In this document: piece after piece, positions 30,745 through 40,861 of the stretch | Layout: every line of letters begins with the position of its first letter | Position numbering within the stretch: position 1 is the stretch's first letter | NCBI GenBank assembly: GCA_937140905.1 | Contig: CAKZQO010000083.1 | Location: 1-40,861, forward strand | Direction: 5' to 3' | DNA length: 40,861 nucleotides | Source: an uncultured Spirochaeta sp. | GTDB taxonomy: Bacteria; Spirochaetota; Spirochaetia; DTKZ01 | Translations under genes and position numbers: made by a program | The notes under the pieces: generated by a model | Told to the model about the DNA's origin: nothing | Seen by the model: the letters and a program-made list of their open reading frames with translations, nothing else | The model's database searches: none

Positions 30745-31440
30745 TTGCAAGAACAAAATGCTCTTGATTTCGAGTTTCCCGCTGTTTTCATTACCAAAAA
30801 AAGCAGAGCAGAAGACATCGTAGGGATCATTAAAGAAGGAATCATACGCGGGTATTGGAAACCGAACGAAAAAATCGATGATAAAGAGTTAGCAAAAAGA
30901 TTGAATGTGAGCCGCATAACAGTCCGAGAAGCTCTCTCAAAGTTGGTAGAACGACGATTGATTGAAAAGAAGCATTGGAAAGGGTTTGCGGTGAGGTATT
31001 TGTCCTGGGAAGAGATAGAGAGTTTGATTGATGTCCGAATAGTGCTAGAAGAATTGGCTCTGAAGAAGATTGTCCAAATGATAACGCCCAATATTATTCA
31101 ATCTCTAGAACAATCTATTGACGAAGCAAAAGAAGCGGTAGAACGAAGAGATTTTCATGGTTTTTCCAGGTCGGATTATCGTTTCCACCAAATCATTCAG
31201 TCTGAATCTGGGAATCCTTGGATCAAGGACATTCTAGAAGACCTTCACGTGCTCATCAGTATCGTGCGATATATTTCTCAATGGAAACATCCTGAGGAAG
31301 TTGCCAAGAAAAGTATTAGTGAACATGAACGGATCGTGGAGTGTTTGAAGCAAGGCAATGGAGATGAAGCGATTCGACATCTCCACGAACATCTAAATAA
31401 CCATCGTGAGCGAGTTAGGATGGAATACCAGTCCGGCTAG
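30745..31440 (+). CDS. GntR-family transcriptional regulator, FCD (FadR-like) subfamily
   Basis: The 231-residue protein has a winged helix (about residues 15-80; LAKRLNVSRITVREALSKLVERRLIEKK) and an all-helical FCD domain (about 90-225). The FCD metal ligands are seen in SDYRFHQII, SEHERIVECL and HLHEHLNNH. FCD regulators usually sense small carboxylates or sugar acids and repress a nearby operon. The start is a TTG with AGGAG seven bases upstream. Its 3' end overlaps the convergent rarD gene by 26 bases. The likely target is the tctCBA operon beyond rarD. Confidence 0.9.
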   Translation: MQEQNALDFEFPAVFITKKSRAEDIVGIIKEGIIRGYWKPNEKIDDKELAKRLNVSRITVREALSKLVERRLIEKKHWKGFAVRYLSWEEIESLIDVRIVLEELALKKIVQMITPNIIQSLEQSIDEAKEAVERRDFHGFSRSDYRFHQIIQSESGNPWIKDILEDLHVLISIVRYISQWKHPEEVAKKSISEHERIVECLKQGNGDEAIRHLHEHLNNHRERVRMEYQSG

Positions 31441-32341
31441 ATCGAACAAGGCTAACCGTGTAGATAGCGAGAGCAGACCATATACACCCAAAGGTGATGA
31501 TATGAGCTCTGGTGAAGGGTTCACCATAAAACAAGACCCCTAATATCAGCATCATGGAGGGGGCAATGTACTGAAAGAATCCCACGGTTGAAAGGGGAAT
31601 TAAACGGGTACCTTTTCCAAACAGATAAAGGGGAAGACTTGTCACCAAGCCACCCAGCATAAGTAAAAAAGTAGTTTGAGATCCATGCAATCCTATAGCA
31701 CCGAGACCTCTCAATTCCATTGTAGCGACGTAAAAAAGCGCCCAGGGTAATAGAACAGCAGTTTCAAACAGAAGCCCAGAAAGTGAATCTAAAGGGGTAA
31801 GCTTTTTCAACAAGCCATAGAATCCGAAGGCCGTTGCAAGGGTAAGCGCAATCCAAGGGAAACGACCATAGTCCAAGGTAAAGTATAAAACTCCAAAAAT
31901 CGAAAGACAGAGGGCTATTCGTTGGATCGGTTTTAGTCGTTCATGTAGAAAGACTCTACCTAGGAGAATGTTCATCAAAGGATTGATGTAGTATCCTAAA
32001 CTAGCCTCAACAATATGTGCATTGAATACTGCAAAAATATATAAAAACCAGTTTACGGCAATCAGGAAGGCAGTGCCGATTAAAAGCATGAGGGTAGTTT
32101 TATTCGCAAACACATTCTTGATCGGATCAGGTCTTGTGATCAGGTAGAGAAGCCCTACGAGTAGAAAAGACCATAGGATCCGATGAGCCAATAATTCCAG
32201 AGGTGAAACATAGCTAAGTTGTTTCCAATATAGAGGTTGAAAGCCCCAAAGAAAAAATGCAGTTAGAGTATAGAAGTATCCTGAAGTATGCATCGAATTT
32301 TTTGTGTTTGATTTGATAGCAATTTGTACACTTTTCTTCAT
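31415..32341 (-). CDS. rarD: RarD-type EamA transporter
   Basis: The 308-residue protein has ten membrane helices and the RarD pattern: FFLWGFQPLYWKQL, HRILWSFLLVGLL, NWFLYIFAVFNAHIVEASLGYYINPLMNILLG, RLIPLSTVGFFQYIAPSMMLILGVLFYGEPF. RarD was named from chloramphenicol sensitivity in Pseudomonas, but its real substrate is not established. It has no clear ribosome binding site, and a TACTAT -10-like box lies ten bases before the ATG. It is divergent from tctC. It may be an exporter or importer linked to the same catabolic cluster, or a bystander. Confidence 0.9.
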   Translation of the reverse strand: MKKSVQIAIKSNTKNSMHTSGYFYTLTAFFLWGFQPLYWKQLSYVSPLELLAHRILWSFLLVGLLYLITRPDPIKNVFANKTTLMLLIGTAFLIAVNWFLYIFAVFNAHIVEASLGYYINPLMNILLGRVFLHERLKPIQRIALCLSIFGVLYFTLDYGRFPWIALTLATAFGFYGLLKKLTPLDSLSGLLFETAVLLPWALFYVATMELRGLGAIGLHGSQTTFLLMLGGLVTSLPLYLFGKGTRLIPLSTVGFFQYIAPSMMLILGVLFYGEPFTRAHIITFGCIWSALAIYTVSLVRSSRTGIPS

Positions 32342-32369
32342 AAACGCGTCAATAGTAAAGAAAATTTGC

Positions 32370-32419
32370 TTGACAAAATAAATTTTATGTTCTTAATATA
32401 AAAATCATAATTTAAAATT
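32370..32419 (+). promoter_or_regulatory. Promoter and candidate operator of the tctCBA catabolic operon
   Basis: A perfect TTGACA (32370-32375), an 18-base spacer and TAATAT (32394-32399) lie 40 bases before tctC. The palindrome AATTT-A-AAATT (32409-32419) covers the first transcribed bases and matches the core of the palindrome upstream of the GntR gene. Confidence 0.6.
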
Positions 32420-32438
32420 CTAAATATAGGAGGGCCTT

Positions 32439-33437
32439 ATGAAAAAACGAATTGGCCGGGGGATCCTTTTATTAAGCGCCTTTGTGTTAGTCGTTACCAC
32501 GCTCATCCATGCGGAAGGAAAAAGGGAGGAAGCAAAGTTCCCGACCAAGCCTATCACTGTTCTACAAGGGTTCAAACCAGGGGGAGGAAGCGATGCGTTG
32601 GCGCAATTGGTGCAACCCTTTCTGGAAAAGAAATTGGGAGTTTCTTTCGTTAATCAGTATATCCCCGGAGCAACAGGTGCGATTGCATGGACACAGTTAG
32701 CAAAACAAACAAAGAACGATGGGTATACGATCAGTATCACCAACACTCCTATGTTGATGACGAACTACATTATGAATCCTGAAATTACCTATTCTGTGGA
32801 TGACCTGGAACCTCTCGCCAACATCGTGACGGATCCTGGAATTATCGTTGTGGGGAAAAACAGTCCTTTCCAGTCAGTGCAGGATTTTTTAAACGCAGTA
32901 AAAGCAAATCCTGGAAAGATAACTGTTGCCAATTCAGGAGTAGGAGGGGATGATTTCTTTACCACATTGATTTTTCAGAAAGAGACAGGATTGAAAGTTC
33001 AAATGGTTCCCTTCGATGGCGATGGTCCTTCCTGGCAGGCTGCCATGGCAGGGAAAGTAGACGTGAGCTTCAACAATCTGGGGGTTACGTATCCACAAAT
33101 TCGAGCAGGTAACCTGCGTGCTCTAGCCCTTTTTGCCGAAAAACGTGATTCCATGATCCCAGAGGTTCCCACTATGAAAGAGATAGGGTTCAATATCATC
33201 GCCGGCTCTTCTAGAGGGTACAGCGCTCCCAAAGGTATTCCTGAGCAAATAAAAAAGGTCTACCTAAAAGCTTTTGAAGAAGTCGCTAAAGACCCTGCAC
33301 TTATTTCTGCAGCCAATGCCCGTGCCCTTCCAATGGACGTTAAGATTGGAGAAGAATATAGAGTCTACTTGAAAACACAAGAAAAGGTATTCAAAGAGAT
33401 TTGGAACGAAGTTAAGTCCCAGTATAGCGTAAAATAA
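32439..33437 (+). CDS. tctC: Tripartite tricarboxylate transporter (TTT) binding protein, TctC/Bug family
   Basis: The 332-residue periplasmic protein has a signal peptide (about residues 1-27, ending IHAEG). Bug-family features are PTKPITVLQGFKPGGGSDALAQLVQPFLEKKLG, a pyrrolidone-type loop with PGATGAIAW, and the C-terminal YSAPKGIPEQIKKVYLKAFEEV. AGGAGGG lies seven bases before the ATG. It captures a carboxylate for TctBA. It opens the operon tctC-tctB-tctA-adh-larA-like-ilvD-like. Confidence 0.92.
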   Translation: MKKRIGRGILLLSAFVLVVTTLIHAEGKREEAKFPTKPITVLQGFKPGGGSDALAQLVQPFLEKKLGVSFVNQYIPGATGAIAWTQLAKQTKNDGYTISITNTPMLMTNYIMNPEITYSVDDLEPLANIVTDPGIIVVGKNSPFQSVQDFLNAVKANPGKITVANSGVGGDDFFTTLIFQKETGLKVQMVPFDGDGPSWQAAMAGKVDVSFNNLGVTYPQIRAGNLRALALFAEKRDSMIPEVPTMKEIGFNIIAGSSRGYSAPKGIPEQIKKVYLKAFEEVAKDPALISAANARALPMDVKIGEEYRVYLKTQEKVFKEIWNEVKSQYSVK

Positions 33438-33438
33438 A

Positions 33439-33460
33439 GAGAGGAGGGCTTCCTCCTCTC
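33439..33460 (+). repeat. Stable intergenic hairpin between tctC and tctB
   Basis: GAGAGGAGG-GCTT-CCTCCTCTC is a perfect nine-pair stem starting two bases after the tctC stop codon. There is no T-run, so it is more likely an mRNA-protecting hairpin that raises binding-protein levels than a terminator. Confidence 0.65.
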
Positions 33461-33480
33461 CTCTATCATAGGTGGTAGAT

Positions 33481-33939
33481 ATGAACCACAGCTCAGCAAG
33501 AATAAGATATTTTCTGTTAGGCTTTATCGTTTTTATTGCAGTTCTTTTTTATTATCAAAGTCTTAAATTACCAAAAGCAGGGTATCAATTACCTAGATTA
33601 CTCTCTGGAGTCATACTTATTTTGGTTCTTATAGATATAGCTAGTACGGTTTTCCATAAGATGTCTAAAGGTGTGGATGGTGTAAAAGATAATAATCCTA
33701 TTAAGGATACAAAGAAAAGACTTCTTTTTTTCTTAATTTCGACATCCCTTTATATCTTTTTGATGCAGCCCATTGGGTACTTTATTATTACTCCTATCTA
33801 CTTGTTTATTACCTTTTTAACATTAAAGTCAATGAAATTGAGAACCAATATTATCGTAACCTTAGGATTTACTCTATTTGTGTATGCATTGTTTGTTAGA
33901 TTCTTGAACCTCCCTGTTCCAATGGGATTTCTAGGATAA
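33481..33939 (+). CDS. tctB: TTT small membrane subunit (TctB family)
   Basis: The 152-residue protein has four hydrophobic helices: about 12-28, 42-60, 84-105 and 110-140. Family-like features are the first helix followed by PKAGYQLPRLLSGVILILVL, and the RFLNLPVPMGFLG end. The start ATG at 33481 has GGTGG five bases upstream; the GTG at 33472 lies within that site. The gene is noticeably AT-rich compared with its neighbours, as often for TctB. Confidence 0.85.
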   Translation: MNHSSARIRYFLLGFIVFIAVLFYYQSLKLPKAGYQLPRLLSGVILILVLIDIASTVFHKMSKGVDGVKDNNPIKDTKKRLLFFLISTSLYIFLMQPIGYFIITPIYLFITFLTLKSMKLRTNIIVTLGFTLFVYALFVRFLNLPVPMGFLG

Positions 33940-33942
33940 AAA

Positions 33943-35433
33943 ATGATTATCAATAATATCCTATTAGGGTTTAGTAACATTCTACAGCCATTTAACTTGC
34001 TGCTTGTTATTGTAGGTTCCTTCATTGGAATATTCGTAGGAGCAATGCCAGGTTTGTCTGCAACGATGGCCATTGCTCTATTATTGCCATTGACGTTTGG
34101 GTTGCCTCCCGCATCGGGAATTGGGATGTTAGCTTCCCTATACATGGGGGCCATGTATGGTGGGTCTATTTCTGCCATCTTAATTCGCACCCCCGGAACA
34201 CCTGCGGCTGCAGCAACGGTGCTGGATGGATATCCGATGGCGCAGAAGGGTATGGCTGGCAAGGCATTAGGGATTTCCCTAACTGCCTCGTTAGTGGGAG
34301 GTGTTCTAAGTAGCATTGCTCTTTTGACGATTGCTCCCGCTCTAGGATACGTAGCTTTAGAGTTCGGGCCTGTAGAGTTATTCGCGGTCGCAGTGCTGGG
34401 GATTACCATTATAGGTTCGTTGTCTCAAGGTTCTACCGTGCTGGGCCTTCTTTCTGGCGCCTTTGGGTTACTGCTGGCCATGGTAGGTATGGACCCGATC
34501 ACGGGAACTCCTCGATTTACTTTTGGGTTAATCAACCTATTTTCGGGAATTCCCTTTGTCGTTGCTCTGATAGGGCTCTTTTCCATCCCCCAAGCCCTTC
34601 GGTTGATCGAACAAGGGGATGATGGAACTCAAGTGATTAGTCGAATTCAGGATCGGCTATTACCGGCTTGGAAAGAATTTAGATCCTTAATTCCTACGAT
34701 TCTTCGTTCCTCGGTAATTGGTATCTTCACCGGAATCATTCCCGGCACGGGAGGGGACACTGCCTGTTGGTTCGCTTACAATGAGGCAAAGAGATTTTCT
34801 AAAAGAAAAGCGGAGTTCGGCTCGGGTGTTCCGGAAGGAATCGCCGCACCAGAATCGGCAAACAATGCGGTTGTAGGCGGTGCATTGATCCCCACGATAT
34901 CCTTGGGGATACCTGGTAGTTCTGCAACTGCAATACTGATTGGTGGTTTGATGGTGCATGGAATCATGCCGGGCCCAACTCTCATGAGTGAGTACGCGGA
35001 GGTTACCTACACACTGATTTGGGCAGTATTCTTTTCCAATTTTGCCATGTTTTTTATTGGTTTGTTGTTTACGAAGGGTGCGATCATCGTAACGAGAGTG
35101 AAGAATAAAGTATTGGCACCCATCATCGTTGTTCTCTGTGTGATTGGATCCTTCTCCATCAATAATAGTTATTTCGATGTAATCATGATGTTTTTATTTG
35201 GTCTGCTTGGGTATGTGATGGAGAAAGTGAAGATGCCAACGGCTCCAATGGTGCTAGGTTTGATCCTAGGCAAGATGATGAACAACAGCCTCTATCAGTC
35301 TCTTCTCATAGGACATGGCAGTTGGTTGATCTTTCTGAAGAGCCCCATAGCAGTGATATTATTTATAGTTTCCATTCTCTCGATACTTCAATCTACTCCT
35401 TTAATCCGATTCATTAAAGGAAAATTCAAATAA
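33943..35433 (+). CDS. tctA: TTT large membrane subunit (TctA family)
   Basis: The 496-residue protein has about 12 helices. The two TctA signature loops are present: GAMPGLSATMAIALLLPLTFGL in the first half, and GIIPGTGGDTACWFAYNEAKR plus PEGIAAPESANNAVVGGALIPTISLGIPGSSATAIL in the second. It starts three bases after tctB and is translated in the same unit. It takes up a carboxylate with a sodium or proton gradient. Confidence 0.95.
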   Translation: MIINNILLGFSNILQPFNLLLVIVGSFIGIFVGAMPGLSATMAIALLLPLTFGLPPASGIGMLASLYMGAMYGGSISAILIRTPGTPAAAATVLDGYPMAQKGMAGKALGISLTASLVGGVLSSIALLTIAPALGYVALEFGPVELFAVAVLGITIIGSLSQGSTVLGLLSGAFGLLLAMVGMDPITGTPRFTFGLINLFSGIPFVVALIGLFSIPQALRLIEQGDDGTQVISRIQDRLLPAWKEFRSLIPTILRSSVIGIFTGIIPGTGGDTACWFAYNEAKRFSKRKAEFGSGVPEGIAAPESANNAVVGGALIPTISLGIPGSSATAILIGGLMVHGIMPGPTLMSEYAEVTYTLIWAVFFSNFAMFFIGLLFTKGAIIVTRVKNKVLAPIIVVLCVIGSFSINNSYFDVIMMFLFGLLGYVMEKVKMPTAPMVLGLILGKMMNNSLYQSLLIGHGSWLIFLKSPIAVILFIVSILSILQSTPLIRFIKGKFK

Positions 35434-35455
35434 ATATTTTGAAGGAGCGGTAGTT

Positions 35456-36553
35456 ATGAGCAAAAAGATGCTTGGTTTAGTTGCGCATCCAGATGGTTCT
35501 CTGAAGCTGGAAGAAGTTCCAGTTCCGGAAATTGGGAAGAATAGGTTTGCCCCCCACGATGTACTAGTAGAAGTACAGTACTGCGGAATCTGTGGAAGTG
35601 ATATCCATAAGTTTCTTGCCGATGATTCGGAAAAAGCGAAATTGAAACATGTTCCTGCTCCAGTAGTGAGCGGACATGAGATAGTAAGCATTGTACGGGA
35701 GGTAGGAAAAGAAGTAACCCGCGTAAAACCAGGCGATAGAGTAGTCCATGAAATTGTAACCTTCTACTGTGGCCATTGCCCCGCTTGTAGGGAAGGAAGG
35801 TACAATATCTGTAACACTTTAGAGCCCATGATGGGGCGTGCTCATTTCGTTACAGGGGGAGGCTTTGCCAAGTATACCATGTGGCCGGAATGGCAGCTTC
35901 ATAAACTTCCCGATTCTGTTCCCACACAAGCCGCGGTACTGATGGAACCTACTGCGGGTTCTGTTCATAGTATCATTACTAGAATGGGAGTAAAGGCTGG
36001 AGAGTCAGTTGCCATACTGGGTCCTGGGGCTAGAGGACTTTTAATGCTTCAAGTTTGCAAAGCGATTGGCGCGGGACCTATCTTGATGTCAGGGATAACT
36101 CGGGATGAACCATTACGTTTGGCAATGGCTCGAAAACTTGGTGCGGATGTGGTTGTGAATGTGGAGAAGGAAGACCTTTGGTCGAAAGTGAAAGAAATGA
36201 CGGGTGGTATCGGTGTGGATGTAGTATTAGAGAACACTGGAGAGGTGGAGCCAATCGCACAGTCTATCGATATTGTGCGTAAAGGTGGCAGGGTTATGTG
36301 GGCCGGTGGAGGTATTCGTGGAGGCATAGTAGCTCCTGTAGACACCCATAAAATCATTGTGAAAGAACTCGATATTAGGGGAGAAATATCTCAGATACCC
36401 TATGATTGGTTAACAGCCATCCATCTCGTTTCGACAGGTAAAGTGCAATTGGAACCTCTAGTAACCCACGTGTTTCCTTTAGAACAATGGAAAGAAGGAT
36501 TTACCTTGGCTGCTACGAGCCATGATTGTCTACGGGTAGCAATCAAACCTTAG
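35456..36553 (+). CDS. Zinc-dependent medium-chain alcohol dehydrogenase (polyol/sugar-acid type)
   Basis: The 365-residue protein has catalytic zinc ligands in QYCGICGSDIHKF and SGHEIV, and the structural zinc site CGHCPACREGRYNIC with four Cys. The NAD(P) domain has VAILGPGARGLLMLQVCKAIG. It is close to the sorbitol / threonine / L-idonate dehydrogenase branch of the family. The likely reaction is oxidation of a secondary hydroxyl of a polyol or aldonate to a ketone. GGAG lies a few bases before the ATG. It sits between the transporter and the LarA-like/IlvD-like genes, so it probably works on the imported compound. Confidence 0.9.
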   Translation: MSKKMLGLVAHPDGSLKLEEVPVPEIGKNRFAPHDVLVEVQYCGICGSDIHKFLADDSEKAKLKHVPAPVVSGHEIVSIVREVGKEVTRVKPGDRVVHEIVTFYCGHCPACREGRYNICNTLEPMMGRAHFVTGGGFAKYTMWPEWQLHKLPDSVPTQAAVLMEPTAGSVHSIITRMGVKAGESVAILGPGARGLLMLQVCKAIGAGPILMSGITRDEPLRLAMARKLGADVVVNVEKEDLWSKVKEMTGGIGVDVVLENTGEVEPIAQSIDIVRKGGRVMWAGGGIRGGIVAPVDTHKIIVKELDIRGEISQIPYDWLTAIHLVSTGKVQLEPLVTHVFPLEQWKEGFTLAATSHDCLRVAIKP

Positions 36554-36581
36554 CGATGCTGTTTTACGAGGAGTTACTGGA

Positions 36582-37850
36582 ATGGATACGATCGATCGGT
36601 TACTAGAGGGAATCCCCATCCCTAGGGTGGTACAGGTAAAGCAAAAGTTCGAACGTCCTGTTATTGTAGATTTGAAAAAAGAGTTTCTTAATCAGATTGA
36701 AGCCAAAAATCTATTTTCTCGTTTACGGAAAGGGATGAAGGTTGCCATCACCGTTGGGAGTAGAGGGATTTCCAATCAACCCTTTCTAGTCAAACTACTA
36801 ATTGAGGAGCTTAAAAAAGTAGGAACGGTACCATTTGTTATTCCTGCGATGGGAAGTCATGGGGGGGCAACCGCGGAAGGTCAACGGTCGATGCTGGAAG
36901 AAATGGGATTCACGGAAGACTACCTTGGCGTTCCTATCAAGGCTACGATGGAGACTGTACAGATTGGAACCAGTTCCAATGGGCTTCCTGTTTATATTGA
37001 TAGATATGCCTCGGAAGCGGACGGGATCATCCTCGTGAACAGAATCAAACCCCACGTGTCTTTTCGAGGACCTTTCGAAAGTGGACTGATGAAAATGATT
37101 ACCATTGGTCTGGGGAAGCAGAAGGGTGCCGATATTTGTCACGAGTTGGGATTTGGGAAAATGGCGGAAAACATTCCTGCCATTGGAAAGGTGGTGTTGT
37201 CTTCTGGAAGAATCTTATTTGGAATAGGGTTGATAGAGAATGCGTACCATGAGACGTGTAGGATCATTCCTCTTTTCCCAGAAGAAATAGAAACTACAGA
37301 ACCACTATTGTTGGAAGAAGCTAGACGGTTATGTCCTAGACTTCTGTTTGATTCGCTAGATGTATTGATTATAGACGAAATAGGAAAGGATATCAGTGGG
37401 ACAGGGTTCGATACGAATGTGGTTGGAAGATACCATACACCGTTTATCTCTGGGGGGCCGAAGATCACAAGAATTGCTGTATTAGATGTTACCGATGCTT
37501 CCCATGGGAATGCCAATGGTTTGGGTATCGTAGATTTTTCTACTCTTCGAGCCTATAAAAAGTTTAAATTCGATCAGACGTACCCCAATTCACTGACATC
37601 GACGGTTCCTATGAGTGCAAAGATCCCGATCATTCTTAAAAATGATCGGCAAGCAATGCAGGCAGCCATTAAAACATGCAATATCTTAGATAAGACGGCT
37701 GTGCGTTTCGTTCGAATTAAAAACACCAACAGTTTAGAATCGATTCTAGTAAGTACCACCTTGCTGGAAGAAGTGAGGAAAAACCCTTCCCTGGAAGTTG
37801 TGGGAGAGCCTTTCGAAATGAAGTTTGATGAAGAGGGGAATGTATTGTAA
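36582..37850 (+). CDS. LarA-like (DUF2088) nickel-pincer-type racemase/epimerase homologue
   Basis: The 422-residue protein has the two-domain LarA layout: an N-terminal DUF2088 domain with VIPAMGSHGGATAEGQ, then NRIKPHVSFRGPFESGLMK and IGLGKQKGADICH. In LarA two His and one Lys in comparable segments hold the nickel pincer cofactor. The H of GSHG, the H of KPH and the K of GLMK here are plausible equivalents; this mapping is from memory. LarA homologues can racemise or epimerise 2-hydroxyacids. The cofactor genes larB, larC and larE are not in the window. AGGAG lies nine bases before the ATG. It directly precedes ilvD-like with no gap. Confidence 0.7.
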   Translation: MDTIDRLLEGIPIPRVVQVKQKFERPVIVDLKKEFLNQIEAKNLFSRLRKGMKVAITVGSRGISNQPFLVKLLIEELKKVGTVPFVIPAMGSHGGATAEGQRSMLEEMGFTEDYLGVPIKATMETVQIGTSSNGLPVYIDRYASEADGIILVNRIKPHVSFRGPFESGLMKMITIGLGKQKGADICHELGFGKMAENIPAIGKVVLSSGRILFGIGLIENAYHETCRIIPLFPEEIETTEPLLLEEARRLCPRLLFDSLDVLIIDEIGKDISGTGFDTNVVGRYHTPFISGGPKITRIAVLDVTDASHGNANGLGIVDFSTLRAYKKFKFDQTYPNSLTSTVPMSAKIPIILKNDRQAMQAAIKTCNILDKTAVRFVRIKNTNSLESILVSTTLLEEVRKNPSLEVVGEPFEMKFDEEGNVL

Positions 37851-39500
37851 ATGCGAAGTAAAGCTATTACAGAAGGTTTATCGGGCGCTACTAGTCGAGC
37901 TCTGTTGCACAGCGTGGGGGTAAGGAGAGAGGATCTAGGTAAGCCTTTGATTGCGGTTGTCAGTTCCTATAACGAGATTGTGCCTGGTTGCATACCGTTA
38001 CGAATCTTATCCGAGTATGTGAAGCAAGGGATCCGACAAGCGGGAGGGATACCGTTCGAGTTCAACACGATCGGGGTTTGCGATGGAATCGCTCAGGGAC
38101 ATACTGGCATGTATTATTCCCTCCCTAGTCGAGAGATCATTTCCTATTCAGTGGAAATTATGCTGCAAGCCCATAGGTTCGACGGGGCTGTGTTTTTAGT
38201 TTCCTGCGATAAGATTACTCCTGGAATGTTGATGGCCATGGTTCGGGTCAACATTCCTTCTATAGCAATCGCAGCAGGGATCATGCCTTCCGGACACTAC
38301 AAGGAAGAACAACTCACCGTTTCCTTGATGCGGGAGTTCATTGGAAGGTTTCAAGCAGGTTTGATAACAGAACAGGAGCTAGTAGAAGTGGAAGCTGCAG
38401 CGTGTCCAAGCTGGGGCACTTGCTCCATGCTGGGTACTGCAAATTCAATGAATTGTTTGACAGAAGTTCTTGGATTGACTTTCCCTTACTCTTCTACGCG
38501 ATTGGCAAACTCCTCAGAAAAGTTCCGGGAAGCTATCCAAGTAGGAGAACGAGCCGTAGCGCTTGTGCAGATGGGTGTGACACCATTAGATATTCTCAAG
38601 AAAGAAGCATTCATAGATGCTGTTCGAGTAGCGGAAGCTATGGGAGCTTCTACGAATGTGGTTTTGCATTTGCCCGCCATTGCGAACTACGCAGGGATAG
38701 ATCTAACGTTGGACGATTTCAAACGAGAGAGTGAACAAGTACCAATCCTTGTGAAAATTAATCCTTCCGGTTCAAAAACAATGGAAGATTTCCATAGAGC
38801 GGGGGGTATTCCTGCATTATTGAAATCGTTAAAAGTTCTTTTAAGTTTAGATCGTCCTACTGTGTATGGTACAACTATTAAAAGTGTCGTAGAAAATACT
38901 ACTATATGGGATCCTGAGATGATCCATCCCTTGGATTCACCCCTAAGCCCGAAAGGTGGGATAGCAGTCCTGTATGGTACATTGGCTCCAGAAGGGGCGG
39001 TGATCAAGAGATCTGCGGTGGATCCTACTTTGTGGAAGTTCCAAGGGCCTGCCCATGTGTTCAATCGAATGGAAGACGCAGTTCAAGCAGTGCAAGATGA
39101 AAGGATTCAACCGGGGGAAGTTCTTGTGATTCGATACGAAGGGCCTATCGGTGGCCCTGGTATGCGAGAAATGCAACAAATAACCGCCATTCTTTCCGGT
39201 AGCGGCTTGGCGAAAAAGGTAGCCCTAGTTACCGATGGCAGATTTTCCGGGTCTACCCGAGGCCCTTGTGTGGGGCATGTCGCACCAGAAGCGGCAAGGG
39301 GAGGCCCTATCGCATTGGTGAAGGACGGAGATTTTATTCGTATCGACCTAGAATCGGGAACTCTGGATATTCTGTTGGATCCAGAGGAATTGGAAAATCG
39401 GAGACGTACTTTTTCATTTCAACGGGAACAGGAACCAGGTATCCTTTCTTTATACGCATCCATGTTGCCTGATACTTCCAAAGGAGCCGTTTGGCATTAA
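37851..39500 (+). CDS. IlvD/Edd-family Fe-S dehydratase, probably sugar-acid dehydratase
   Basis: The 549-residue protein is of the usual length for dihydroxy-acid dehydratase. Family motifs are [69 protein letters not shown] and [21 protein letters not shown]. The Cys of CDK and of CPSWGTC should hold the Fe-S cluster. In the branched-chain enzyme, as I recall, the third residue after NEIVP is His (NEIVPGH); here it is Cys. The operon context with TTT, alcohol dehydrogenase and LarA-like genes, and no ilv genes, suggests an aldonate dehydratase making a 2-keto-3-deoxy acid rather than amino-acid synthesis. Confidence 0.85.
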
Positions 39501-39583: not shown

Positions 39584-40708
39584 TTATCTCATCGCATTCC
39601 GGATCTTCATCTTGTCTACTTCATTCAATTTTTTCCCTGCAGCCACTTTCGCCCAGGTGGAGTAATTATAGAACCGAAGGGCGTTCGCCGCCGTAACGAT
39701 CTCGTTGTACATATCAAAACTTCCAGCGGGGAGAAAAAAATCCTGCACGTTGTCCGTTCCGATTCGCACCGGGATATCCTCGATCAGAAAATCCAGTACC
39801 CGGGTGATGCTATTGTGCATGGGAACCATTACCCGCCTGTCTTGCCGGTTGGAAAGAGTGGCCGTAGGGCAGACAATGACACCGATGTTGGTTTCCTTCA
39901 GGCCCTCTACAACCCTTCTAAACTTTTCTTCACTGTAGGAGGCGACACTTAGAGCATGGACCGCCCAGATGGTTGGCTCTTGGCTTTCTTGTGAGGAACG
40001 AACCTTGGTTTCTTGCTTGGTATCCTCAATTCCCTGGTGTTTGTATTGTTTTCTGTAATGAGCGGGGCGTAACCATCGTACCGCTTCGATCAGGGTCAGG
40101 GTCCCCTCTTCATCCGGCAGATTCGTTTGATCCACATGGAAATGCACTTCTTTTCCTCCCAAGGAATTGGCCAATTCGATCACTCTTCGAAAATGCTCTT
40201 TGAATCCAATATGACCTTTTCGGGCATCTCGTTCAGGGAGGGTGCCGATGAAGTCGGCCAGTGAGGCCGCGGCTACGAACACTTCCCACCGACGGGGTTC
40301 ATCGTCCTTGAAGCCGAATATGGGATATGCTCCTACTCGTAGATCGATCTTGTCTTTGTACTTGGCCTTCAAATCCAGGGCAACTTCCAAGGCCCTTAGT
40401 TCTACCCCATCCGCCGTAGTGTCAATGAAGGTGTCCAATCGAGTTACTCCGAACCGAATCGACGCATCTAGGGCTGCCCCCATACGCTCGTAGAGGGATT
40501 CCCGGGTGTAGGCTAAGCCTTCGTGCAGGACCCCCGTGGTATGTTGTTTCACCTCCAGGGGATAGGTGGCGATTTCCCAGGGATCCATATCTGCATGGGA
40601 AACATACTTGGGATCCATCACCAGGGCGCGGTCTAAGTGAGCGTGCCCATTGAAGAATCCTCCCGCTTCTTGGACCGAGCGGCGGATTAAGGTTTCATAG
40701 GACGTCAT
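39584..40708 (-). CDS. Amidohydrolase-family metal-dependent hydrolase (cytosine-deaminase-like)
   Basis: The 374-residue TIM-barrel protein has FFNGHAHLDRA (metal-binding HxH), EVHFHVDQTN, WAVHALSVASYSEE and RIGTDNVQDFFLPAGSFDMYNE, matching the layout of CodA/atrazine-chlorohydrolase-like amidohydrolases. The final Asp in TDN is the metal Asp. It would hydrolyse an amide, amidine or cyclic substrate, perhaps a nitrogen heterocycle. GGAGG lies five bases before the ATG. The gene is convergent with the ilvD-like gene and may be preceded by an attenuator leader on the same strand. Its role beside sugar-acid genes is unclear; lactone or cyclic amide opening is possible. Confidence 0.8.
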   Translation of the reverse strand: MTSYETLIRRSVQEAGGFFNGHAHLDRALVMDPKYVSHADMDPWEIATYPLEVKQHTTGVLHEGLAYTRESLYERMGAALDASIRFGVTRLDTFIDTTADGVELRALEVALDLKAKYKDKIDLRVGAYPIFGFKDDEPRRWEVFVAAASLADFIGTLPERDARKGHIGFKEHFRRVIELANSLGGKEVHFHVDQTNLPDEEGTLTLIEAVRWLRPAHYRKQYKHQGIEDTKQETKVRSSQESQEPTIWAVHALSVASYSEEKFRRVVEGLKETNIGVIVCPTATLSNRQDRRVMVPMHNSITRVLDFLIEDIPVRIGTDNVQDFFLPAGSFDMYNEIVTAANALRFYNYSTWAKVAAGKKLNEVDKMKIRNAMR

Positions 40709-40733
40709 GGGAACCTCCGAACGAAAGGAACAT

Positions 40734-40779
40734 AAAAAAAGCTCCCTAATCCCGAAGGATCAGGGAGCTTTACTGCTCC
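40734..40779 (-). promoter_or_regulatory. Candidate transcription attenuator in the amidohydrolase leader
   Basis: On the minus strand AGCTCCCTGATCC-TTCG-GGATTAGGGAGCT is a 13-pair stem with one G-T pair and a C(UUCG)G-type loop, followed by seven T residues, 26 bases before the amidohydrolase ATG. GGAGC-AGTAAA-GCTCC (40779-40764) uses the same GCTCC as its 3' arm, so it excludes the terminator. This is the arrangement of a terminator and antiterminator pair. The G-T pair becomes A-C on the plus strand, which supports the minus-strand reading. It could also simply end a minus-strand gene beyond the window. Confidence 0.65.
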
Positions 40780-40791
40780 GAGATACCATTG

Positions 40792-40861
40792 CCAGGCATG
40801 CACCTCATTTTTTTGGTGCAAATTAGTACAACTGCCTAGCCCAGTTACCATCTTAGAACTT
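40792..40861 (-). ncRNA. Structured leader region upstream of the attenuator (possible aptamer)
   Basis: On the minus strand CTAGGCA (40839-40833) pairs with TGCCTGG (40798-40792), and directly stacked on it TGCACC (40820-40815) pairs with GGTGCA (40804-40799) around a ten-base A-rich loop. A 12-base one-sided bulge GTTGTACTAATT lies between the two helix parts. A further AGAT/ATCT pairing may enclose this. The 5' part is cut by the window edge. I do not recognise a known riboswitch class. Confidence 0.4.

Follow-up and report, generated by a model that had tools for sequence, protein, structure and literature searches.

The amidohydrolase gene of the window, which is the whole 40,861-nt stretch of DNA analyzed here, is probably attenuated by a conserved and unclassified leader RNA. 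A cis-acting transcription attenuator of this gene was found to be the best explanation of the sequence comparisons, with a probability of about 0.52. The window equals the entire contig C83 of the draft genome G000, which is assembled in 324 contigs, so the contig has no sequence past 40861. All elements of the leader lie on the minus strand between 40734 and 40861, and the features referred to below are the following:

40850..40857, minus strand: 5' strand of helix P1, UCUaAGAU, pairing with 40784-40777 in 7 pairs
40849-40846 (within 40842..40849), minus strand: conserved unpaired GGUN
40845-40842, minus strand: 5' strand of helix P1b, ACUR, with its partner at 40788-40785
40833..40840, minus strand: 5' strand of helix P2, GCURGGCA, with its partner at 40798-40791
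40821..40832, minus strand: 12-nt one-sided bulge on the 5' side
40799..40820, minus strand: P3 hairpin, UGCACC...GGUGCA
40777..40798, minus strand: 3' strands of P2, P1b and P1, UGCCUGGC-AR-UGGU-AUYUCGGA, near-invariant in two species
40757..40787, minus strand: proposed antiterminator of 10 pairs, GGUAUYUCGGAGC (40787-40775) with GCUCCCUGAUCC (40768-40757)
40779-40764, minus strand: hairpin GGAGC-AGTAAA-GCTCC, 5 pairs, -7.3 kcal/mol
40734..40768, minus strand: intrinsic terminator with a UUCG loop and seven T at 40740-40734
40705..40851, minus strand: leader reading frame of 48 codons, crossing the terminator, its TGA overlapping the amidohydrolase ATG
40714..40718, minus strand: Shine-Dalgarno GGAGG of the amidohydrolase gene, by sequence
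39584..40708, minus strand: cytosine-deaminase-like amidohydrolase gene, 374 aa, ATG at 40708

The stacked helix with its 12-base one-sided bulge (40832-40821) and the GGAGC-AGTAAA-GCTCC hairpin, whose 3' arm is common to the terminator, were both recovered where the initial annotation had placed them. The terminator likewise ends just 5' of the ribosome binding site, with GGAGG and the ATG coming next, and the gap between terminator and ATG amounts to 25 nt, in which no promoter-like site was found. It is strong, UUCG-capped and followed by seven T as had been described, and 12 core pairs, or 15 including the A/U extension, were counted in it. The 132-nt leader stretch folds with -57 kcal/mol compared to -33.7 +/- 3.7 in dinucleotide shuffles (z = -6.4, with 0 of 200 shuffles as good), and a large share of this energy belongs to the terminator hairpin, which alone accounts for approximately -22 kcal/mol. 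The fold containing P1b is an alternative that lies at most 1.4 kcal from the MFE.

Among the nine genomes of the family that were searched, which are also the whole sample for the order, a counterpart of the leader was found in G002 (MAG ‘Spirochaetes bacterium isolate SKW186’), a member of the same genus as the window genome. It is located before the same gene with 82% identity over 123 nt (E 4e-29), and the two amidohydrolases share 92% of their amino acids. The RNA occurs in cis and on the same strand in both species, 85 nt before the gene in G002 and 25 nt before it in the window. Fourfold-degenerate sites of the gene are near saturation with 46 of 90 identical (51%), whereas the RNA core is 89% identical, with differences at 7 of 62 positions (p 8e-7 against the 44 of 90 fourfold sites that differ). 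The 12-nt bulge and the P3 loop differ at 12 of 22 positions, a divergence that is distinct from that of the core at p 1e-4, while the terminator part differs at 3 of 39.

Changes in paired columns kept the pair in five out of six cases, for which the chance expectation is about 0.02. All of them are one-sided, so that covariation between the two sequences consists of one-sided changes only and includes no double-sided ones. In P1b a G-U pair is exchanged for A-U, and in P2, which is predicted in both species, an A-U pair for G-U. The P3 stem is kept despite two one-sided changes and its loop has diverged. P1 has lost its outermost pair in G002 and shows one G-C to G-U change, with its other pairs invariant. 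Among the unpaired positions, conservation was seen at GGUN, at a G/AR internal loop, and in a stretch around UCGGAGCAG. As the core is conserved, the bulge and loop have diverged and the pairs are kept, selection acts on the folded RNA. The structured core is a candidate aptamer. With 7 of 12 positions changed, the bulge is less conserved than any other part and therefore not the functional core. P1 is weak in G002 and absent from the MFE structure, which counts against an attenuator.

None of the 4227 families of Rfam 15 matched the leader RNA at or above the gathering threshold, and the best sub-threshold matches at permissive thresholds covered the generic terminator only. The search agrees with the earlier reading that no known class is recognizable, and the reported absence of a T-box signature was reproduced, with RF00230 giving no match up to E = 10. 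The leader recalls T-box RNAs in its UGGUA beside the antiterminator, which resembles UGGNACC, but it is too short, lacks a Stem I with specifier loop in its 120 nt, and matches only 8 of the 14 bases in the T-box consensus. Its terminator arms resemble the GCUCCC...GGGAGC of PyrG leaders. In contrast to the PyrR-binding and PyrG leaders (RF00515 and RF02371), however, the binding loops and the GGGCUC start were not found, and the scores of 18-24 bits stay below the cut-offs of 54 and 65 and are carried by the terminator. For RF00515 they were 18.3 and 18.0 bits in the window and G002, respectively, mostly from the generic terminator. A PyrG-type reiterative start was rejected, as the leaders show no GGGC start. 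In titles and abstracts of the literature, no regulatory RNA was reported for the amidohydrolase gene.

Progressive folding showed that the sensor helices form first. Window transcripts of 105-110 nt then prefer a 10-pair antiterminator, GG(U)AUC-UC-GGAGC / GCUCC-CU-GAUCC, which takes the 5' arm of the terminator minus one CU as well as the 3' strand of P1/P1b and can form before the terminator is completed. Both species can form each of the ten pairs, the sole variable base (C/U in column 77) being compatible with either alternative. In the folding model, the P1 3' strand, the antiterminator and the terminator exclude one another, a strand sharing like that of riboswitch expression platforms. 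The minus-strand RNA would first fold into a sensor of P1, P1b, P2, and P3, and the P1/P1b 3' strand (GGUAUYUCGGA), together with GC, could alternatively pair with the terminator 5' arm. Binding of a metabolite or protein that keeps P1 closed would allow the terminator to form and transcription to stop 25 nt before the gene (OFF), while an open P1 would let the antiterminator delay the terminator so that the gene is read. Since strand sharing leaves the terminator free when P1 is closed, an OFF switch is predicted.

Two energy comparisons count against the attenuator. The terminator state is favored by 17-18 kcal/mol in the full RNA, and the antiterminator energy compared to shuffles reached p 0.05 in the window and a non-significant 0.32 in G002. 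With a terminator preference of approximately 17 kcal/mol, switching must be kinetic. Given this large preference and the non-significant value in G002, switching is, like its direction and any effector, something we infer. The layout of aptamer, antiterminator and terminator proposed in the initial annotation stands in so far as a conserved structured cis leader ends in a terminator, but the 5-pair GGAGC/GCUCC hairpin it had named as antiterminator is too weak at -7.3 kcal/mol to compete thermodynamically with the terminator. In no lineage did mimic hairpins of this 5-pair type reach significance (p 0.07-0.88).

The leader resembles terminating metabolite riboswitches in strand order and sharing, with the P1 3' strand forming part of the antiterminator and the terminator downstream, and also in its conserved core with variable loops and its position in cis to a metabolic gene, here without an Rfam class. 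It differs from them by its occurrence in two species only, its weak antiterminator, and the other leaders carried by orthologous genes. A metabolite riboswitch is a plausible candidate, and the enzyme class and the pyrE neighbors in relatives make a pyrimidine-related effector the best guess. The more specific reading, in which a new riboswitch class of narrow distribution would respond to a pyrimidine-like metabolite by turning off the cytosine-deaminase-like enzyme, with the lineages each having acquired a different attenuator, is tentative and regarded as rather doubtful.

The 85-nt core was turned into a covariance model (R1), which identified the RNA in two of 395 genomes of the class, the window genome and G002. 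A close amidohydrolase occurred in exactly the same two genomes and was not found in the genus sisters G001 and G003, each of which is only 79% complete. This co-occurrence speaks for a role in cis rather than for a free-standing RNA. Further R1 matches in G072 (23.7 bits) and G194 (18 bits) were rejected, as their helices are broken and the former lies inside an open reading frame. Short BLAST matches in the G000 contigs C96, which by reading lies in a coding frame, and C116 were rejected at chance-level E-values.

More distant amidohydrolase orthologues with 65-70% identity were identified in KSB3 MAGs and in a small number of further Spirochaetota. The conservation among homologous amidohydrolases that had been named as a check on the leader did not extend to them, as their leaders contained other elements and no R1 RNA, no detectable common aptamer, and no Rfam family at gathering score. 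The lack of a common aptamer counts against the attenuator. Every distant orthologue, however, carries one or two terminators between the upstream gene and the start codon. A strict terminator detector passed five out of six independent lineages (window/G002, L029, L030/L042, L032, and L033), with weaker terminators in L031, whereas only 3 of 287 control genes in four of these genomes had a leader terminator (1 of 140 divergent and 2 of 147 co-directional). The binomial probability of this enrichment is 7e-10, or 2e-6 at a background of 5%. The sole divergent control case (L098) sits behind a tRNA cluster, so the divergent control rate is effectively 0 of 140. The upstream gene is divergent in L030, L031, and L032, where the leader terminator can therefore not belong to it, and possibly co-directional in L029, L033, and G002. 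Since terminators occur in the leaders of all lineages and rarely before controls, attenuation would be the rule for this gene with a leader that differs by lineage, and is likely a property of the gene itself.

Some of these leaders showed additional elements. Those of the f39 orthologues (L030:2790-3000 and L042:30-240) contain a clear promoter (TTGACA), a leader frame rich in Lys and Arg that crosses the terminator, and a small hairpin (GGCUU/AAGCC) that shares a terminator arm. At L032:2800-3000, two frames continue without a stop codon across the leader terminator, of which one shares the phase of the amidohydrolase gene.

The main rival, serious although considered less likely than the readings above, is translation-coupled attenuation of the pyrBI or trp type, in which a ribosome on the frame starting at AUG 40851 would follow the RNA polymerase and melt the terminator, and slowing of either would alter read-through. 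Leader frames reach or cross the terminator in all lineages, starting approximately 60-110 nt before it. They cross it in the window, G002, L029, L030 (GTG), L042 (ATG), L031, and L032, and end in the terminator loop in L033. The frame is kept in both close pairs, L030/L042 and window/G002, the latter despite a 60-nt difference in length, as the 60 extra nt past the terminator in G002 contain no in-frame stop before the same ATGA is reached. Orthologues without a common aptamer would be expected of leader-peptide attenuators; enteric pyrE and pyrBI use translation-coupled attenuation, and pyrE is found downstream in L033 and together with pyrD/K in L029. Open frames are, however, not rare in shuffles (p 0.05-0.44 per leader and approximately 0.06-0.12 for the window frame alone), and with a combined p of approximately 0.07-0.2, a Fisher estimate from the per-leader shuffle values, the leader frames are suggestive only. 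No Shine-Dalgarno precedes the AUG in G002 or within the 10 nt visible before AUG 40851 in the window, and the AUG sits within P1. The leader peptides are unconserved with mostly non-synonymous changes, and the frame does not account for why the P1/P2 core is so strongly conserved. By reading, the window and G002 lack a U-rich pause tract before the terminator, and L029 has one. The leader thus resembles the E. coli pyrBI and rph-pyrE attenuators in a frame up to or through the terminator and in the pyrE beside the amidohydrolase in relatives, but the window leader differs from them in lacking a Shine-Dalgarno and a U-rich pause tract and in having a conserved RNA fold, which the pyrBI leader is not known to have. 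Trp control by conserved UGG-CAR-UGG-UAU codons was rejected, as their position gives no clean switch and the translation start is poor.

It is unlikely that the RNA is an independent small RNA, or forms the 3' end of an upstream alpha/beta-hydrolase transcript, and has this terminator as its own, with the amidohydrolase transcribed from its own promoter. One feature that had been named as evidence against the leader, a gene on the minus strand that ends just past 40861, is present in G002, where a co-directional alpha/beta-hydrolase gene ends at L023:10201, approximately 26 nt ahead of the RNA. Promoter-like sites also flank the RNA there; one (TTGACT-17-TATCGT) ends immediately 5' of P1, which also fits the attenuator, and the other, between terminator and amidohydrolase, also counts against the attenuator. 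In the window, however, only 25 nt separate the terminator from the ATG, the RNA occurs only where the close amidohydrolase occurs, and a conserved 85-nt structured RNA would be unneeded in front of an upstream gene's terminator. The leader terminators behind divergent upstream genes in three other lineages, at a near-zero rate in controls, speak against this origin as well. Least probable is a protein-bound attenuator (PyrR-, LicT- or ribosomal-protein-like), a sub-case of the general attenuator scheme in which the conserved helix would be a protein site and not a metabolite aptamer. Conserved residues in helices and small internal loops and the pyrimidine context in relatives are in its favor, but no candidate protein was identified and the PyrR model reached 18 bits against its cut-off of 54 in both species, mainly on the generic terminator.

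Upstream of the leader in G002, a TetR gene and the alpha/beta-hydrolase gene lie on the same strand, the latter (L023:10201-11413) apparently frameshifted close to the 3' end, through error or decay. No overlap with the window end was found among 60 sampled G000 contigs. The edge of contig C8 (L131, 3-560) falls inside a metallo-hydrolase gene that is located three genes upstream in G002, and approximately 2 kb between C83 and C8 are therefore probably missing from the assembly or located on an unsampled contig.

If the attenuator reading is right, it would add an uncatalogued structured regulator from a little-studied spirochaete lineage. The terminator before the gene in every lineage examined, with differing sensors, would be a clue to an uncharacterized amidohydrolase family and a testable case in which the attenuators upstream of a single gene have repeatedly been exchanged. 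Identifying the effector would then show to which pathway the amidohydrolase belongs.

The closest NCBIfam model of the 374-aa amidohydrolase was PRK06886 (E 3e-55, below its cut-off), followed by cytosine deaminases, which are also the nearest solved structures in the PDB; no Pfam match was obtained. The gene was rejected as a missing dihydroorotase, as PyrC-like proteins, none above the model cut-off, were found elsewhere in 8 of 8 genomes searched. In the KSB3 MAGs, pyrE was found directly 3' of the orthologues at L029:4240-6713, together with a pyrD/pyrK fusion, and at L033:4105-4761. This neighborhood suggests a pyrimidine role for the family. By reading, a pyrE-like gene also precedes a diverged homologue in L043 (G201:C250). 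In G002, RarD immediately follows the amidohydrolase. In the window, RarD is surrounded by a cassette at 30745-39500 that reaches the amidohydrolase gene and is missing from the equivalent G002 site; it comprises a GntR regulator, a Tct-type transporter (by reading), a dehydrogenase, a nickel-pincer isomerase of group 22, and a dihydroxy-acid dehydratase.
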